Shown in pieces: positions 40,183-46,242 of a DNA stretch of 64,000 nt. The notes beneath the pieces were generated by a model, which did no database searches, was not told the origin of the DNA, and worked only from the letters and a program-made list of their open reading frames with translations. Both the position numbers and the translations under genes were made by a program. Position 1 is the first letter of the stretch; the number at the start of each line of letters is the position of its first letter. The stretch comes from Isoalcanivorax indicus (lineage in GTDB: Bacteria > Pseudomonadota > Gammaproteobacteria > Pseudomonadales > Alcanivoracaceae). The stretch lies in NCBI RefSeq assembly GCF_003259185.1, contig NZ_QGMP01000001.1, positions 2,480,001-2,544,000 of the forward strand, read 5' to 3'.

Positions 40183-43131
40183 TCAGCACTCGGCGCCGGT
40201 CACATCGACGATGACCTGCTCAGCAGGGCACGACATGGAACCCGGAATGCGGATGATGTCACCGACCCCCAGGCAACTGCCGCCAATGAAGTTGGACCAG
40301 GTTACGGCCACCCCCTGGCCCGCCAGGGTCCCGGGGCATCGCGCCTCAAAACTGACCCGGCAACCGGATGTGGACGGCCTGCTCGTCTGGATGAGGTAAC
40401 TCCCGTCGCACCTGACCGCTCGGGCGGACAACCCACTCACCAGATTACGCGCAGCCTGCTCCCTTTCCTGTTGTCGTTTCAATCGCGCCTGCTCTTCAGC
40501 CTGACGGCGCTCTTCTGCCTGTCGTTGACGATTCGCCTCTGCGGCTTCCGCTTGCCGTCTGCGCTCCGCCGCCTGCGCCGCAGCCAGCCGTTCCTGCTCC
40601 TGACGACGCAGCTCGGCTTCGCGGGCAGCCTGCGCCTGCTGCGCCTGGCTCTGGGCCTGCGCCACCTGCTGGTTGTAGGCGACAACCTGTTGCTGACGTC
40701 GGGCCTCTGCCTCGGCGTTCGCCGCCGCTTGTCGTTGCCGCTCCTGTTCTGCGGCTTGCTGCAGCAGCAGGTTATGCTGGCGCTGACGTTCCGCCTGGGC
40801 CTGGCGCTCCAGCTCCGCCTCCTGGGCAATCGTGCCGACGGTTTCAAACAGGGCGCCCATGAAGGCTGCCCGTTGCTGGGCCTTGCGTTGCCGTTCGGCT
40901 TCTTCTGCGGCGCGCTGTTGCGCCAGCCGTTCCTGTCGCGCCCGGATGATGTCATCGGCGGTCTGGTTATTCTGATTGCGCAGGCTTCGGTCGGCACCCG
41001 CAGCTACCAGCAGCCGATACCCTTCCATATAGTCATCCAGTGCGGCCTTGTGCAGCGGCGTCCATCCGCCTGTGGTGGTGGCGAGGTTCGGGTTGGCCCT
41101 GGCCTCAAGCAGACTGCGGGCCAAGTCCGGCCGCTTGAGCTGTATGGCAAGATACAGCGGCGTAAACCCGTCATTGTCGGCAAGATCCGGATTGGCCTTG
41201 CCCGCCAGCAGATCAACCAACGCCTTGTTGCCCGCCGCCACCGCCAACCTGAGCGCCGTATGGCCTTGCCCGGTGCGCAGGTCCGGGTCGGCGCCAGCCG
41301 CCAGCAGCGCACGCACCATGGCCACGTCATTCTTTAGCACCGCTGTATGAAGCGGCGTCCGGAGGCTGGTCGCCGAGACCACATCGGGTTTGGCGCCAGC
41401 CGCCAGCAAGGCCGCCAACAGCTCTGCATCCTGACGATCCGCCGCCAGGTGCAGCGCTCGCCACTGCTCTTCACCCAGCCCGCCCAGATTCGGGTCCGCA
41501 CCGGCCTCAAGCAAGCGCCGCACCATGCCGCCCTGGCGGTCACGCACAGCCACCAGCAAGGCGGTAAGCTGATCCGGCTCGGCAGCCCACTGTTCGTTGA
41601 CCTCGGCACCCGCCGCCAGCAATCGTTGCATCAGACCTTCGCGGTGATTCAGCGCCGTCATCGCCAACGGCGAGGGGCCCTCCAGCGGACGGCTGCTGCG
41701 CAGGCGGCCCGGATTCGGGTTGGCCCCGGCTTCCAGCAGCATGGCCGTCAACTCCAGATGATCCTGTTCGATCGCGACTTGCAACGGTACCCAGGCCTTG
41801 CCCTCCTCCTGCACCCGGTTGGGGTCGGCGCGCGCGGCCAACAGGCGTTGCGCCAGGGCGGGTCGGCGCGCCGCCACGGCGCGCTGCAATGCCGTGTTGC
41901 TGCCCGGGGCCACCAGATCCGGGCGCGCGCCCGCCTCCAGCAACGCCTGCACCATCGCTTCCTGATTGTGCTCCACAGCCACCAGCAAAGGCGTCAACCC
42001 CGACTGCATCACCGTATTGGGGGTGGCCCCGGCGTCCAGTAATTGCCGGGCAATCTCCAGATGGCCCGCAGAAACCGCTGCTATCAACGGTGTATTGATA
42101 TCACCCGATCCACCCGGGCGTGCCCCGGCACGCAGCAACTGCGTCACGATCTCACCGTGCCCCGCAGCCGCAGCCAACGTCAGCGCCATAAGCCCGTCCT
42201 CGCCCGTCGCGTTGGCGTTGGCCCGCGCGGCCAGCAATGCGGCCACCACCGACGCATGGCCCGCTTCGGCGGCCTCGAACAAGGGCGTGCCACCACGGGC
42301 GTCCGTCACCTCAGTGCGTGCACCCTGCGCCAGCAGCCATTCGACCAACGGCAGGTTATCGTGCGCGGCGGCAGCATGCAGGGCCGAGGGCCTCCGGGGT
42401 ACCTCGCCCAGGTGGTTGACGACGTCCCGCGCGACCGCCGCAGGATGAAGCGACCGAATCGCCGCCATCAGGACGGCTGCCGTGCCCATGATGTCCGCAT
42501 CGGGACCTGGCGCAGCGTTATTCGCCAACAGGCTCAAGGCAGTCTGTTGCAGCGCATCCCGGGCCAGTGGGTCAGCACCGCGAGCCAGCAAATATTCACT
42601 CAGGTCACGATAGCCCAGACCTGCCGCCAGCAGCAGCGGCGTCAGAGCCTGATCGGTATTGCGGCTTTCGATGTCTGCCCCCGCCGCCAACAGTGCTTCC
42701 GCACTGGCGCGCTGGTTGGCCTGCGAGGCCACCGCCAGCGGCGTCATATCCTCGGTGTAGCCGTGCGCACGACGTCCCACCACGGCCTCCAGCGCGGACT
42801 GGCTTCGCCAGGCCCATTGCTGCAACACGGGGCGCGCCGCGCCGGATTCCTGCGCCGAGATATCCCGCACCTCCACGTCGGCCCCGGCGGCCACCAGTTG
42901 GCGTACCACCTGGTCATGGCCATTCTCGGCCGCCAGCGATAACAGCGTGCGACCCGTCCGGTCGTTACGATCCAGGTCCTGGACGGCTGCCAGCTTCTTT
43001 TCCACCCTCTCGGTATTGCCGTCCTGCACCGCTCTGTGAAGCCCGGTGGAGGCGCAGGCCACAAGAACGCCGGTGACCCACAGCAGCACGCCCACACGGG
43101 AACACCGCATCAACCAGATACGCCCCTTCAT
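40183..43131 (-). CDS. Giant ankyrin-repeat lipoprotein with coiled coil and Cys-rich tail
   Basis: 982 residues. The ATG at 43131 is preceded by GGGGA at 8 nt; an in-frame ATG at 43146 lacks a ribosome site. Signal with lipobox LVAC (lipid Cys about residue 26). Then about 19 ankyrin repeats (about residues 28-690; consensus TPLxxAAxxGxxxxVxxLLxAGADPNxxx), one of them (about 195-240) degenerate. Residues about 700-895 are a long Gln/Glu/Ala/Arg coiled coil (QERLAQQRAAEEAERQRK and similar). The final 80 residues contain six Cys and a small beta-like domain (CDGSYLIQTSR, FIGGSCLGVGDIIRI). Ala after the lipid Cys allows sorting to the outer membrane. Function unknown; a periplasmic protein-binding scaffold is plausible. 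A 22-bp palindrome lies about 55 bp before the start. Confidence 0.88.
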   Translation of the reverse strand: MKGRIWLMRCSRVGVLLWVTGVLVACASTGLHRAVQDGNTERVEKKLAAVQDLDRNDRTGRTLLSLAAENGHDQVVRQLVAAGADVEVRDISAQESGAARPVLQQWAWRSQSALEAVVGRRAHGYTEDMTPLAVASQANQRASAEALLAAGADIESRNTDQALTPLLLAAGLGYRDLSEYLLARGADPLARDALQQTALSLLANNAAPGPDADIMGTAAVLMAAIRSLHPAAVARDVVNHLGEVPRRPSALHAAAAHDNLPLVEWLLAQGARTEVTDARGGTPLFEAAEAGHASVVAALLAARANANATGEDGLMALTLAAAAGHGEIVTQLLRAGARPGGSGDINTPLIAAVSAGHLEIARQLLDAGATPNTVMQSGLTPLLVAVEHNQEAMVQALLEAGARPDLVAPGSNTALQRAVAARRPALAQRLLAARADPNRVQEEGKAWVPLQVAIEQDHLELTAMLLEAGANPNPGRLRSSRPLEGPSPLAMTALNHREGLMQRLLAAGAEVNEQWAAEPDQLTALLVAVRDRQGGMVRRLLEAGADPNLGGLGEEQWRALHLAADRQDAELLAALLAAGAKPDVVSATSLRTPLHTAVLKNDVAMVRALLAAGADPDLRTGQGHTALRLAVAAGNKALVDLLAGKANPDLADNDGFTPLYLAIQLKRPDLARSLLEARANPNLATTTGGWTPLHKAALDDYMEGYRLLVAAGADRSLRNQNNQTADDIIRARQERLAQQRAAEEAERQRKAQQRAAFMGALFETVGTIAQEAELERQAQAERQRQHNLLLQQAAEQERQRQAAANAEAEARRQQQVVAYNQQVAQAQSQAQQAQAAREAELRRQEQERLAAAQAAERRRQAEAAEANRQRQAEERRQAEEQARLKRQQEREQAARNLVSGLSARAVRCDGSYLIQTSRPSTSGCRVSFEARCPGTLAGQGVAVTWSNFIGGSCLGVGDIIRIPGSMSCPAEQVIVDVTGAEC

Positions 43132-43182
43132 CTGCCCCTTCCCCATTAGATTTTTGCCGCCAGCCTAATCGCAACACCGTGC

Positions 43183-43214
43183 GGCGCTCATACCCCATTT
43201 TGGGTATGAGCGCC
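43183..43214. promoter_or_regulatory. Palindromic operator-like site 1 (ankyrin/luxR intergenic)
   Basis: Inner 22-bp site at 43188-43209: TCATACCCCA, two bases, TTGGGTATGA. It extends to a 13-bp perfect inverted repeat (43183-43195 with 43202-43214). The same half-sites, again with only one mismatch from a perfect palindrome, occur at 45869-45890. Placed between the divergent ankyrin gene and luxR-type gene. Confidence 0.65.
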
Positions 43215-43321
43215 TGCTCCCCCGTGATGTCGCGGACTTTACTTTTGCCCGGGCATCCGTAAATCTTCCGGAATAATCGTGTGACAGAGTTGTCACCATA
43301 AATATGACTGGAGTCCCACAG

Positions 43322-44437
43322 ATGCTGAAAGATGATCAGCACTGGCTGTCGGTAGTGGAAAACTTCAGCGCCGCAGCACTGGGCACTGGCACCTGGATCA
43401 CCGCACTGGAAAACATGGCTGACGTCACCGGATCGCGCGCCGGTGAGTTGATTGGTCTGGGTGCCGACAATGCCGTGCCGTTCAACTGGCTGACCGATCT
43501 GGGGCAGGACTGGGCCGACGACTTCATCGCAGCAGACGGCGGGAACCCCGAGGTCAATCCGTATGTACGCCACGGCGCCGGACTCAGCGAATTGCAGGTG
43601 GCCAGCAGCGCGGAGATCGTGACGCCCGGAGAGCGCCGCACTACCCCCTTCATGATGGAATTCCTGGCCCATTACGACGTGCCCTATATCTGCCTGTCGC
43701 CGCTGGTCAAGGAACCGGGGCTGCTGGTCGGGCTGGCCGTAGTGCGCAGTCAGGGTCAGGGCGAGATCACTGCTGCGCAACGAGCCGTTTTCAGCTCATT
43801 GGCCCCACACGTCCGTTCTGCCGTCAAAACACAGATGGCTCTGGAGCATCAGGGGGCTGATCTGGTGGCTGGCACGCTGGAAGCGCTGTCGTTCGCGGCC
43901 TTCGTCTGCGACCGTCTTGGCGTGGTGCGCTCCATGACGCCCCTGGCGGAACAGCTGGTGTCCGAAGGCGGCCTGCTGAAACTTCGCCACGGCGTGCTGA
44001 CCGGGCCGTCGCGCCACGAAAGCCGTCGTCTCGCTGCTCTGATTGATCGTGCAGCGCTGGGGCTTGTCGTGCCCGGTGCGCCGCTGACACGTACCTTGAT
44101 TCTCAACGCCGGGGCCTCGGCACCTCTGGTGCTGGACGTGGTCCCCCTGCCCAGGCAGGACTATGCATTCAACTTTCGCCCGCGCGTACTGGTGATCGTT
44201 CGTGCCCGGCAGTCCAATCCCGACCATGTCTGCACGCTACTGCGCATGGCACACGGCCTGACTCAGGCTGAAGCCGATGTCGCGGTGCGCCTTGCCGCGG
44301 GCGAGTCGCCGGAGCACATCGCTATGGCGCGCGGCGCCAGCATCGCAACGGTAAGGGTGCAGATCCGCGCGGTCTACCAGAAACTCGGGGTCCACCGGGC
44401 CGGTGAACTGGCGGCACACCTGAAAGGTATCGGCTGA
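43322..44437 (+). CDS. LuxR-type HTH transcriptional regulator
   Basis: 371 residues. The C-terminal 60 residues are a LuxR/GerE helix-turn-helix: GLTQAEADVAVRLAAGES, then ATVRVQIRAVYQKLGVHRAGELAAHL. The rest shows a possible GAF-like sensor region (about residues 90-190, including a PFMMEFLAHYDVPY strand-helix pair) and a PAS-like part (about 195-290). It has no phosphoacceptor domain and no obvious autoinducer-binding motif, so the signal is unknown. ATG 43322 has GGAG 8 nt upstream and is preferred over ATG 43304. Divergent from the ankyrin lipoprotein and convergent with another lipoprotein; both flanking targets have the same palindrome in front. Confidence 0.88.
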   Translation: MLKDDQHWLSVVENFSAAALGTGTWITALENMADVTGSRAGELIGLGADNAVPFNWLTDLGQDWADDFIAADGGNPEVNPYVRHGAGLSELQVASSAEIVTPGERRTTPFMMEFLAHYDVPYICLSPLVKEPGLLVGLAVVRSQGQGEITAAQRAVFSSLAPHVRSAVKTQMALEHQGADLVAGTLEALSFAAFVCDRLGVVRSMTPLAEQLVSEGGLLKLRHGVLTGPSRHESRRLAALIDRAALGLVVPGAPLTRTLILNAGASAPLVLDVVPLPRQDYAFNFRPRVLVIVRARQSNPDHVCTLLRMAHGLTQAEADVAVRLAAGESPEHIAMARGASIATVRVQIRAVYQKLGVHRAGELAAHLKGIG

Positions 44438-44452
44438 GAAAAGGTGGGGGTA

Positions 44453-44475
44453 GCGGCGGCGACATTTGCCGCCGC
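44453..44475. terminator. GC hairpin between convergent genes
   Basis: 8-bp GCGGCGGC/GCCGCCGC stem with a 7-nt loop, 16 bp after the luxR stop and 13 bp after the opposing lipoprotein stop. It lacks a T-run in the plus direction and has a short, distant one in the minus direction. Possibly a shared barrier to read-through. Confidence 0.4.
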
Positions 44476-44487
44476 CGCCTCACAGGG

Positions 44488-45780
44488 CTATCCGTTCTTC
44501 GCCAGACAGTCGCCCGTGGCATCAGGAATCGGCGCGAAAAACATCACCACGTCCTCGTCGTCAGGCTCCAGCACCAGGCAGCCTGATTCATCCACGCTCA
44601 GTATGATGCTGGCCTTTTCCCCGGTCTCCGGATCGTGCAATCCGGTGTCGTCGTTGGTATCGGTGTAGATCTCATCGGGCGTCAGCACACCGTTACTGAG
44701 CAGGTAGCTGCCCACCTCCACACCGGCATCCTCGTCCAGCTGTGCCACCATGTAGGTGCCGTCAGCCAGAATCGTGAGCACCGCCGTCAAGGTATCTTCC
44801 TGCTCTTCAGCGATGGCCCAGCTGCCGTAAATACCGTCGTTAACAATCCGGTTCAGGAACATCGGCGGATCTTCCAGCTCTTCGGGGTGCCGCGACACCA
44901 GCATGAACCGGTTTTCATTCACCAGAGCGAAGCCGCTGATGTTGTTTGCCGCATCGTTTTCGTAGTGGAGGCCGCAATCGCCGTTCACGCCGGTGGTATC
45001 CGGGCTGGCACCCGTGGTGCGCAGTTCACCGGCCAATGCATCCAGCTCGAAGGTGCCGTACTCCACGCCGTCAAAACATTCCGGGTCATCACCGTGGTTC
45101 ACACCCAGCACATAACGACCACCAGGAAAGAATGAAACGACGGCCATGAGCGCCTCAGCGGTTTCATCTGTCTCCAGACGCCAGCTGCCGTACAGCTTGC
45201 CCAGCACGGTATTGTTCACGTGCTCTTCGGCGTCGGCAGGTGTCACGACCGTGTAATCGTCCCCGGCCAGATTCAGCAGTTCCGCGTCTGCGGCAAACGC
45301 GGTTGGAAGCTGGAGGAAATTCAATGCCGTTGTCGCCGCCCCCGCCACCGCCGGGTCGATGCGAATACCGTCACCCTGCTCGCTGTCGAAGGTCTGCAGG
45401 AAAATGGCAATATTCAGCGCCACGTCAGCGGCCGTCACGCCGGCCTGCAACAGGGTGTCGGCATCCATCGCGCTGGCCAGGGTCTGCGGCGTCATGATGC
45501 CAACCGCTGGCGCCGAACCCAGCAGGATCGCGCCCACGGAGAAGCTCACCGTGTCACCGTCCCGGTACAGGAACTCACCCGCAGCATTGGTCGTGCCCGC
45601 CAGTCCCGATGGCGAGGCGTGCCAGGTCAGCCCCTCGACCTCGGCATCCAGAAACACACCCGTACTGGTGGTGCCACCACCACCCTTGCCACCGCCACTC
45701 CCTCCTCCGCCACAGGCGGCGATCAACAGCACCGCCGCCAGAACCGTCCAGCCTCGTGCAAACCCGATTCGTTTTTTCAT
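44488..45780 (-). CDS. Gly-rich lipoprotein with two GSW-type repeat domains
   Basis: 430 residues. Lipobox IAAC (Cys23) followed by a Gly-rich flexible linker (about 24-37), typical of surface-exposed lipoproteins. A beta domain follows (about 40-105: GVFLDAEVEGLTWHAS, AGEFLYRDGDTVSFSVG). Two related domains then appear, one from about residue 197 (YGSWRLETDE ... AVVSFFPGGRYVLG) and one from about residue 320 (YGSWAIAEEQ ... AVLTILADGTYMVAQ), suggesting an internal duplication. The protein is very acidic. Function unknown; adhesion or ligand binding is possible. A palindrome matching the one before luxR lies about 90 bp before the start. Confidence 0.75.
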   Translation of the reverse strand: MKKRIGFARGWTVLAAVLLIAACGGGGSGGGKGGGGTTSTGVFLDAEVEGLTWHASPSGLAGTTNAAGEFLYRDGDTVSFSVGAILLGSAPAVGIMTPQTLASAMDADTLLQAGVTAADVALNIAIFLQTFDSEQGDGIRIDPAVAGAATTALNFLQLPTAFAADAELLNLAGDDYTVVTPADAEEHVNNTVLGKLYGSWRLETDETAEALMAVVSFFPGGRYVLGVNHGDDPECFDGVEYGTFELDALAGELRTTGASPDTTGVNGDCGLHYENDAANNISGFALVNENRFMLVSRHPEELEDPPMFLNRIVNDGIYGSWAIAEEQEDTLTAVLTILADGTYMVAQLDEDAGVEVGSYLLSNGVLTPDEIYTDTNDDTGLHDPETGEKASIILSVDESGCLVLEPDDEDVVMFFAPIPDATGDCLAKNG

Positions 45781-45866
45781 GTGATATCCCCTTTTCAGAC
45801 AGGTCGACCACCCCCGTCAAAAGGGGTGGAGCCATTGGCAAGGAGATTAGAGGGACAGCATGATCC

Positions 45867-45892
45867 GTTCATACCACAACTGGGGTATGAAC
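45867..45892. promoter_or_regulatory. Palindromic operator-like site 2 (upstream of Gly-rich lipoprotein)
   Basis: Inner 22-bp site at 45869-45890: TCATACCACA, two bases, TGGGGTATGA. It has one mismatch from a perfect palindrome and the same length and half-sites as the site at 43188-43209. It lies 89 bp before the ATG of the lipoprotein gene, in a position suitable for activation. Confidence 0.65.
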
Positions 45893-45921: not shown

Positions 45922-46242
45922 TTACCAGTCGATACGGCGGGTAAGAATGTCTTTCCACATGACGAAGTCACCCGCCAGGCTGTACCACGGGTGTTTGAAG
46001 GTGGCCGGGCGGTTCTTCTCGAAGAAGAAGTGGCCCACCCAGGCGAAGCCGTAGCCGATCACCGGCAGCCCGAACAGCCACCAGGCGCTCAACGGCCCCA
46101 GCACCACGGCCAGCAGCAAGGCGATCACCAGGCTGGTGCCGATGAAATGCAGGCGCCGACAGGTGCTGTCACTGTGCTCCTGCAGATAATAGGGATAGAA
46201 CTCCGCGAAGCTCTGGAAGCCCGACTGCTTGATGGTGGTCAT
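45922..46242 (-). CDS. Mpo1-like/DUF962 membrane protein
   Basis: 106 residues. Contains the family pattern FAEFYPYYLQEHSDSTCRRLHFIGTS, with the conserved His pair, a hydrophobic hairpin (VIALLLAVVLGPLSAWWLFGLPVIGYGFAW), then HFFFEKNRPATFKHPWYSLAGDFVMW. In yeast Mpo1 is an Fe-dependent dioxygenase that alpha-oxidises 2-hydroxy fatty acids; the bacterial role is inferred. The ATG at 46242 has AGGAG 7 nt upstream; the longer frame to 46311 has none. Confidence 0.88.
   Translation of the reverse strand: MTTIKQSGFQSFAEFYPYYLQEHSDSTCRRLHFIGTSLVIALLLAVVLGPLSAWWLFGLPVIGYGFAWVGHFFFEKNRPATFKHPWYSLAGDFVMWKDILTRRIDW

Follow-up and report, generated by a model that had tools for sequence, protein, structure and literature searches.

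A shared inverted repeat upstream of two lipoprotein genes in Isoalcanivorax indicus, a probable operator of a LuxR-type regulator

The window analysed here is a stretch of 64,000 nucleotides (nt) from the genome of Isoalcanivorax indicus (contig NZ_QGMP01000001.1, positions 2,480,001 to 2,544,000 of the forward strand), which contains two closely similar 22-bp inverted repeats, or dyads, each located upstream of a lipoprotein gene, and a gene for a LuxR-type regulator adjacent to the first of them (Table 1). Together, the two dyads and the regulator very probably represent an uncharacterised circuit of a regulator and surface proteins. It also appears probable that a dimeric activator of the LuxR type binds both dyads and activates both of the lipoprotein genes.

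Each of the two sites differs at one base from the pattern TCATACCCCANNTGGGGTATGA and has a single unpaired position, and a sequence scan and shuffles confirmed the positions and shared half-sites described in an earlier, sequence-only reading of this DNA. The shuffled windows contained a mean of 0.01 matches to the motif, and none of 100 shuffles contained two. The 20-mer core of dyad 1 is an exact fit to a generalised form of the dyad, CATMCCCMANNTKGGGKATG. That reading had seen no third copy in the window, and this holds for the whole 3.44-Mb genome, in which the two dyads are the only places recovered at up to three mismatches, with 0 matches for a reversed-pattern control. The 16-bp core TACCCCANNTGGGGTA alone, searched at up to two mismatches in the same genome, recovers five places against six for the control, which is not significant; one of the three additional places (G000:C2:68906) lies directly 3' of a second LuxR-type gene. 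Dyad 1 was found, as proposed, inside the 157-bp divergent gap between the open reading frame (ORF) of the ankyrin-repeat lipoprotein and the LuxR-type gene, while dyad 2 lies 88 nt 5' of the ORF of the glycine-rich (Gly-rich) lipoprotein, just past the stop of an Mpo1-like gene.

Table 1. Features of the presumed circuit, with positions in the window, and the second LuxR-type gene of the same genome (aa, amino acids).
Feature	Position	Strand	Remarks
Dyad 1, presumed regulator operator, TCATACCCCATTTTGGGTATGA	43188-43209	.	sequence scan
Dyad 2, presumed regulator operator, TCATACCACAACTGGGGTATGA	45869-45890	.	sequence scan
LuxR-type regulator gene, 377 aa	43304-44437	+	C-terminal LuxR/GerE helix-turn-helix (HTH), residues 319-370; GAF-like and PAS-like regions tentative
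Ankyrin-repeat lipoprotein gene, presumed target 1	40183-43146	-	lipobox by our own reading
Presumed -10 (TAGGCT) of the ankyrin-lipoprotein promoter	43162-43167	-	+22 to +27 after the 20-bp dyad core; dyad centre about -43.5; inferred start about 43155
Gly-rich lipoprotein gene, 430 aa (...AACGGGGSGGG...), presumed target 2	44488-45780	-	lipobox by our own reading
Presumed -10 (TAATCT) of the Gly-rich lipoprotein promoter	45844-45849	-	+21 to +26 after the dyad core; dyad centre -42.5; inferred start about 45837
Mpo1-like gene	45922-46242	-	
Second LuxR-type gene (L050)	G000:C2:67762-68898		homolog in the same genome, dyad just past the stop (unit to 68922)

The two dyads look like promoter elements. 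In both cases, a presumed -10 element is found at +21 or +22 on the lipoprotein side only, the opposite sides being without it at that spacing. The spacing of 21-22 nt places the centre of the dyad at -42.5 or -43.5, which is the position of the lux box in promoters with a class II activator. A combined search of the genome for the dyad with a -10 at +21, at up to three mismatches overall, recovered only the two window places, against one match for the reversed control. Each place scored best toward its own lipoprotein (with one and two mismatches), and the ankyrin-promoter place was reached with two mismatches when the -10 was set at +21. The sequence-only reading is corrected here on one point, in that dyad 1 has promoter geometry toward the ankyrin-lipoprotein gene, but none toward the luxR gene.

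The same architecture precedes lipoprotein genes in many relatives. The exact CATMCCCMANNTKGGGKATG is found in 13 of the 390 genomes sampled from the order, with 0 for the reversed control among the matches listed, and at up to one mismatch it occurs in 35 of the 46 genomes of the family, where the reversed control gave 0 in all 46. The loci that were fetched provided at least 84 distinct dyads (at up to one mismatch), which are not every site, and 65 of these lie outside the longest-ORF calls, compared with 18% of random positions. A lipoprotein (41) or LuxR (9) gene starts close by, in the right direction, at 50 of the 84, and also at 34 of the 64 dyads from loci fetched by the pattern alone, while such a gene follows 4.2% of random positions, or 7.1% of random intergenic ones, in the same loci; simple rules were used to call the ORFs and lipoboxes, so the target fractions are approximate.

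Alignment of the 50 dyads that have a target, in the direction of the gene, left 44 after the removal of near-duplicates (80% or more identical); dyad 1 was turned manually to face the ankyrin gene, given that the rule had picked the LuxR gene. In the letters that follow the 20-mer, T is found at +21 in 26 of the 44, A at +22 in 31, and T at +26 in 29, which correspond to the best conserved letters of the sigma70 -10 element, and the place of the -35 element reads ATGYGC, not TTGACA. A plain scan for matches to TATAAT produced a weak peak, and the TAnnnT form emerged from a later per-position profile. When neither orientation nor target was chosen, TAnnnT occurred at +21 in 36 of 146 flanks and at +22 in 13, with a mean of 0.73 at the other offsets. 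Among the non-redundant CATMCCCMANNTKGGGKATG sites, 48 of 73 have TAnnnT at the offsets tested (+20 to +22), against a mean of 4.9 and a maximum of 12 in shuffles. Judged from the -10 spacing, a dyad of about 20 bp at -42.5 with no -35 consensus would have the features of a class II LuxR-type promoter. The -10 is as common at the dyads with no lipoprotein or LuxR target by rule (23/34) as at those with one (30/50), and therefore either the dyad promoters serve other genes too, or the gene rules miss targets.

A further test was based on dyads at up to two mismatches in 15 genomes that carry an ortholog of the regulator and whose dyads lie outside the set of 84. Eleven of these genomes have a dyad, with 30 sites in all against two for the control. 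Of 26 sites read, 14 have a -10 at +21/22 (control offsets have a mean of 0.5 and a maximum of 2), the rule assigns a lipoprotein target to ten (against a random rate of 5.8%), and in eight the -10 is on the side of that target. The 26 sites are partly dependent, given that at least three pairs look orthologous (L240/L242, L239/L241 and L228/L234), and the dyads of L196, L197 and L208 were already known from the loci of the regulator clade described below.

The regulator itself has a C-terminal GerE HTH (PF00196), which scores 27.3 bits against a gathering cut-off of 23.5, and nothing else was recovered from Pfam at E ≤ 0.1, with no autoinducer-binding, receiver or PAS match. At E below 0.001, the sequence matches in the PDB fall on the HTH end, and are to VraR, DesR, VpsT, NarL, GerE, RcsB and similar regulators. 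A structural model based on a 17-sequence alignment (pLDDT 84, pTM 0.60) suggests, tentatively, that a long linker helix separates a GAF-like from a PAS-like region (about 198-300), with the HTH after them. The best Foldseek matches are to the sensor regions of phytochrome PAS-GAF, DhaR and FixL, and to regulators of the TraR/QscR/RhlR type; as the TM-scores are low, the domain names are tentative, and the presence of TraR, QscR and RhlR among the fold matches makes a very distant kinship with the LuxR proteins of the acyl-homoserine lactone (AHL) type possible. An AHL quorum-sensing LuxR is not supported, as Pfam recovers no autoinducer-binding domain in the N-terminal half, and neither is a NarL/FixJ response regulator, because there is no Pfam receiver domain and the PDB matches to response regulators are confined to the HTH end.

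The two presumed targets were classified as lipoproteins by reading the lipobox, rather than from the output of a dedicated predictor, and both may be located at the cell surface. The second ATG (43131), directly preceded by a good ribosome-binding stretch, is the likely start of the ankyrin lipoprotein. The 430-aa Gly-rich lipoprotein has no Pfam family match, and a single-sequence fold model of the lipoprotein P0002 was useless (pLDDT 34). Relatives of the 430-aa protein are found in 27 of the 46 family genomes, and several of their loci include a LuxR-type gene distantly related to the regulator, with a dyad 5' of the lipoprotein and, in many cases, another 5' of the LuxR operon. In the genome of I. 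indicus itself, a stretch 34% identical to this protein lies within an open frame of 1947 residues (G000:C3:32062-32544). A comparison of ten dyad-adjacent proteins with Pfam left six without a match; of the rest, two have thrombospondin-type-3 (TSP3) repeats (in one case just short of the cut-off), one has TPR below the cut-offs, and one is a TraF-like outer-membrane protein.

Several other dyad-bearing loci were observed in the related genomes, the genes being named from our own reading. A perfect CATACCCCATATGGGGTATG has an ABC transporter on one side and a lipoprotein operon on the other in three genomes of the genus g2 (L051 8330, L053 8897 and L054 8332), and no relative of the regulator was recovered by tblastn in the 16-17 kb around it. 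Five loci (L100, L101, L109, L173 and L181) have two to five clustered LuxR-type genes and Gly-rich lipoproteins, with a dyad 5' of most units, and several of these clusters adjoin a ferrochelatase-like gene. In Pseudomonas sp. MYb185 and Halopseudomonas (L240 2568-2587 and L242 2640-2659), CATCACCCAAATGGGTGATG, with a -10 at +21, precedes PilV/PilW-like minor pilin genes.

Relatives of the regulator were matched in 150 of the 390 genomes of the order at E ≤ 0.001, the closest being 57%, 38% and 36% identical. No close ortholog was found in the six other genomes of the genus, where the match with the best E-value has 30% identity over residues 116-369, and another, of 37%, is confined to the HTH. 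The search with the regulator protein covered 21 of the 46 family genomes (own included) and recovered no second close ortholog, the 20 others having only LuxR-type relatives with about 23-31% identity over the longer stretches. A scan of genome contigs with the single protein found no locus, and an alignment-based scan recovered 16, ranging from Marinimicrobium (57%, 54% and 36%) to Caulobacterales and sphingomonads, and including Steroidobacter, a metagenome-assembled genome of the Ectothiorhodospiraceae, Pseudomonas sp. MYb185 and Halopseudomonas. In a tree of 58 proteins, which has several long branches and is unsure in its details, the regulator groups with three Marinimicrobium proteins (100/99) inside a clade of 18 (100/100), and the other group of 40 contains the remaining LuxR proteins, mostly from this family, including the second homolog of I. 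indicus.

Besides the window, 17 loci of this clade were available (L196-L211 and G363). A perfect dyad is located in Asticcacaulis between the regulator ortholog and a divergent gene for a 1584-aa RTX-repeat protein. The Marinimicrobium loci with 57% and 54% identity have dyads with two mismatches, one of them 5' of a lipoprotein with a -10 at +21, and the third Marinimicrobium locus has a dyad with three mismatches 5' of a divergent lipoprotein, again with a -10 at +21; the reversed control gave 0 matches in the 264 kb of clade loci. The idea of a LuxR-type regulon, with a shared dyad before two lipoproteins, is well supported by comparison, through the fixed -10 spacing, the recurrence before lipoprotein genes and LuxR operons in other genera, and the ortholog of another class (Asticcacaulis) with its perfect copy. 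By our own reading, Gly-rich lipoprotein genes adjoin two of the Marinimicrobium orthologs and that of Steroidobacter (L196, L198 and L205), with none seen adjoining the regulator genes in L197, L200 and L201, and large surface or secreted proteins are frequent neighbours in the clade loci, with RTX repeats in L203, L208 and L211, and PKD domains in L205. Two Brevundimonas loci (L207 6478-6497 and L211 near 7940) have a different, related-looking dyad with CTACAA/TTGTAG halves, and CATACCCAATATTGTAGATG, from Marinimicrobium, resembles a hybrid between this type and the TACCCCA type.

A number of observations weigh against the control of both dyads by the neighbouring regulator. A dyad lies no more than 2 kb from the gene in only four of the 17 clade loci (with zero, two, two and three mismatches), and of the other 13, one has a three-mismatch match 7 kb away and 12 have none. 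The Asticcacaulis dyad is without a -10 at +21/22, that of locus L197 (Marinimicrobium sp.) is flanked by the ends of convergent genes, and 12 of the 26 dyads read in the other 15 genomes have no -10, with several inside genes. A motif-free palindrome test on the 17 orthologs and the window was mostly not significant (13 loci); Asticcacaulis was exceeded in 0 of 400 shuffles, with values of 0.045 for the window, 0.05 for L205, 0.06 for L207, and 0.015 for L211, in this last case on a different palindrome. Such statistics alone would not have revealed the link between the dyad and the clade. The dyad is not exclusive to this regulator, as 35 of the 46 family genomes carry dyads and no close ortholog was found in the 20 searched besides this one. 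The sequence-only reading had taken dyads in genomes lacking the regulator as a sign against the regulon, and this objection applies in part: among the 35 genomes with dyads, nine are without even a member of the second LuxR group (E ≤ 1e-15), while 26 genomes have both the dyad and this group, five the homolog only and six neither. Strict co-occurrence of the dyad with one regulator group is therefore unsupported among the 46 genomes, and as the dyad does not belong to any one regulator, it is likely that regulators have been exchanged or that homologs cross-bind.

The strongest of the alternatives is that the class II activator which binds the dyads is not the neighbour, but another LuxR-type homolog, such as the second one of the same genome, which could bind them instead. 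It would account for the many family genomes in which such dyads occur and the LuxR proteins seen are all of the more distant group, and also for the TMCCCCANNTGGGGKA-type dyad found just 3' of the second homolog and of its relatives in two congeners (L065 and L066). Within the seven genomes of the genus, however, this species alone has a close match to TCATACCCCANNTGGGGTATGA (up to two mismatches), and it is also the sole carrier of the regulator, while dyad 1 sits in the regulator's own upstream gap and the clade orthologs include the four with a dyad nearby. Binding by another homolog is considered rather unlikely. The dyad of the second LuxR gene is followed by a gene for a protein of about 105-115 aa which, by our own reading, resembles a fragment of sigma-factor region 2, an arrangement that is repeated in the two congeners.

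It is improbable that the dyads are the operators of a repressor that overlap the promoters, although they do cover the -35 position, as many operators do, given that a -10 spacing fixed at 21-22 nt, with the -35 consensus missing, is the signature of an activator-dependent promoter. A role as RNA hairpins, either terminators or attenuators, is less probable still. The pairing of dyad 1 continues outside the 22 bp (GGCGC/GCGCC), which would permit a 13-bp stem (z of -5.9 and -6.7 on the two strands), but the stability of dyad 2 is ordinary (z of -1.8 and -1.6), a terminator scan found none at either dyad, and both lie 5' of the inferred start, and would not be transcribed from these promoters. 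The terminator scan and the z-scores led to the rejection of the hairpin reading. Chance resemblance between two unrelated palindromes, which the mere two copies in the genome might suggest, is scarcely credible in view of the shuffles, the reversed-pattern controls, the -10 geometry and the recurrence before lipoproteins elsewhere.

Under activation by the neighbouring regulator, the product of 43304-44437 would be a one-component activator of the LuxR type, whose GAF/PAS-like N-terminal half may sense a signal. Its C-terminal HTH would bind, as a dimer, the dyad of 20-22 bp, which is formed by two seven-base half-sites (TACCCCA) set 2 bp apart and would replace the -35 element in both target promoters. 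The bound regulator would then recruit the sigma70 RNA polymerase, and the ankyrin and Gly-rich lipoprotein genes would be transcribed leftward. The regulator gene itself would not be a target of the same geometry.

The mechanism has close parallels in the literature. The lux box is a 20-bp inverted repeat centred at -42.5 (PMC3376562), and the LuxR/lux box class II promoter shares this position, the approximate length of the repeat and the LuxR-type HTH with the present case, which differs in the lack of an autoinducer-binding match, the tentative GAF/PAS-like sensor, the half-site and the lipoprotein targets. The PAS-LuxR regulators of Streptomyces (PimM and PteF), which stand outside the two-component systems, combine a PAS sensor with a LuxR HTH, and the PimM operator, CTVGGGAWWTCCCBAG, lies at the -35 hexamer (PMC4700089) and can be read as a pair of 7-bp halves with 2 bp between them. 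The present system differs from these in the TACCCCA letters, the phylum, the extra GAF-like region, and in having lipoprotein rather than antibiotic targets. The HTH of NarL is homologous (1je8 was matched), and its consensus, TACYYMT, resembles TACCCCA. The 7-2-7 layout of NarL, with two inverted seven-base elements and 2 bp between them (PMC7419079), is also the same, although NarL acts as a phosphorylated response regulator and has a receiver domain (PMC4549865), which neither Pfam nor the model finds in the regulator. A further G/C-rich dyad with a different sequence, AGGGGGGATTTCCCCCCT, is that of VqmA from Vibrio (PMC8284805), a protein that activates a small-RNA gene. The targets considered in the present case are lipoprotein genes. 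VqmA combines a PAS domain with a LuxR-type HTH, and we know of no VqmA lipoprotein regulon. A search of the literature by titles and the opening parts of abstracts recovered no description of the operator or regulon among the matches listed, and the terms lipoprotein, GAF and Alcanivorax are absent from a review of LuxR solos (PMC10134790).

The mechanism is therefore of a known kind, and what would be new, if confirmed, is how broad the regulon is and its bias in favour of surface proteins. It is conceivable, though somewhat doubtful, that a widespread and unnamed class of GAF/PAS-LuxR one-component activators switches on large surface proteins through a conserved dyad at -42.5, from the Alpha- to the Gammaproteobacteria, as a general surface-remodelling regulon that has survived a deep split among the regulators. 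The surface proteins of this speculative regulon might include Gly-rich lipoproteins, lipoproteins with TSP3 repeats, RTX giants and, in some cases, a minor-pilin-like operon. The analysis provides a concrete operator and promoter architecture for a family of LuxR-type regulators and for a class of lipoproteins without a function in the searches, and the candidate members of the regulon can be listed from sequence by the dyad and a TAnnnT located 21-22 nt further on. In this way, the question of what prompts the remodelling of the surface in these bacteria would become testable.

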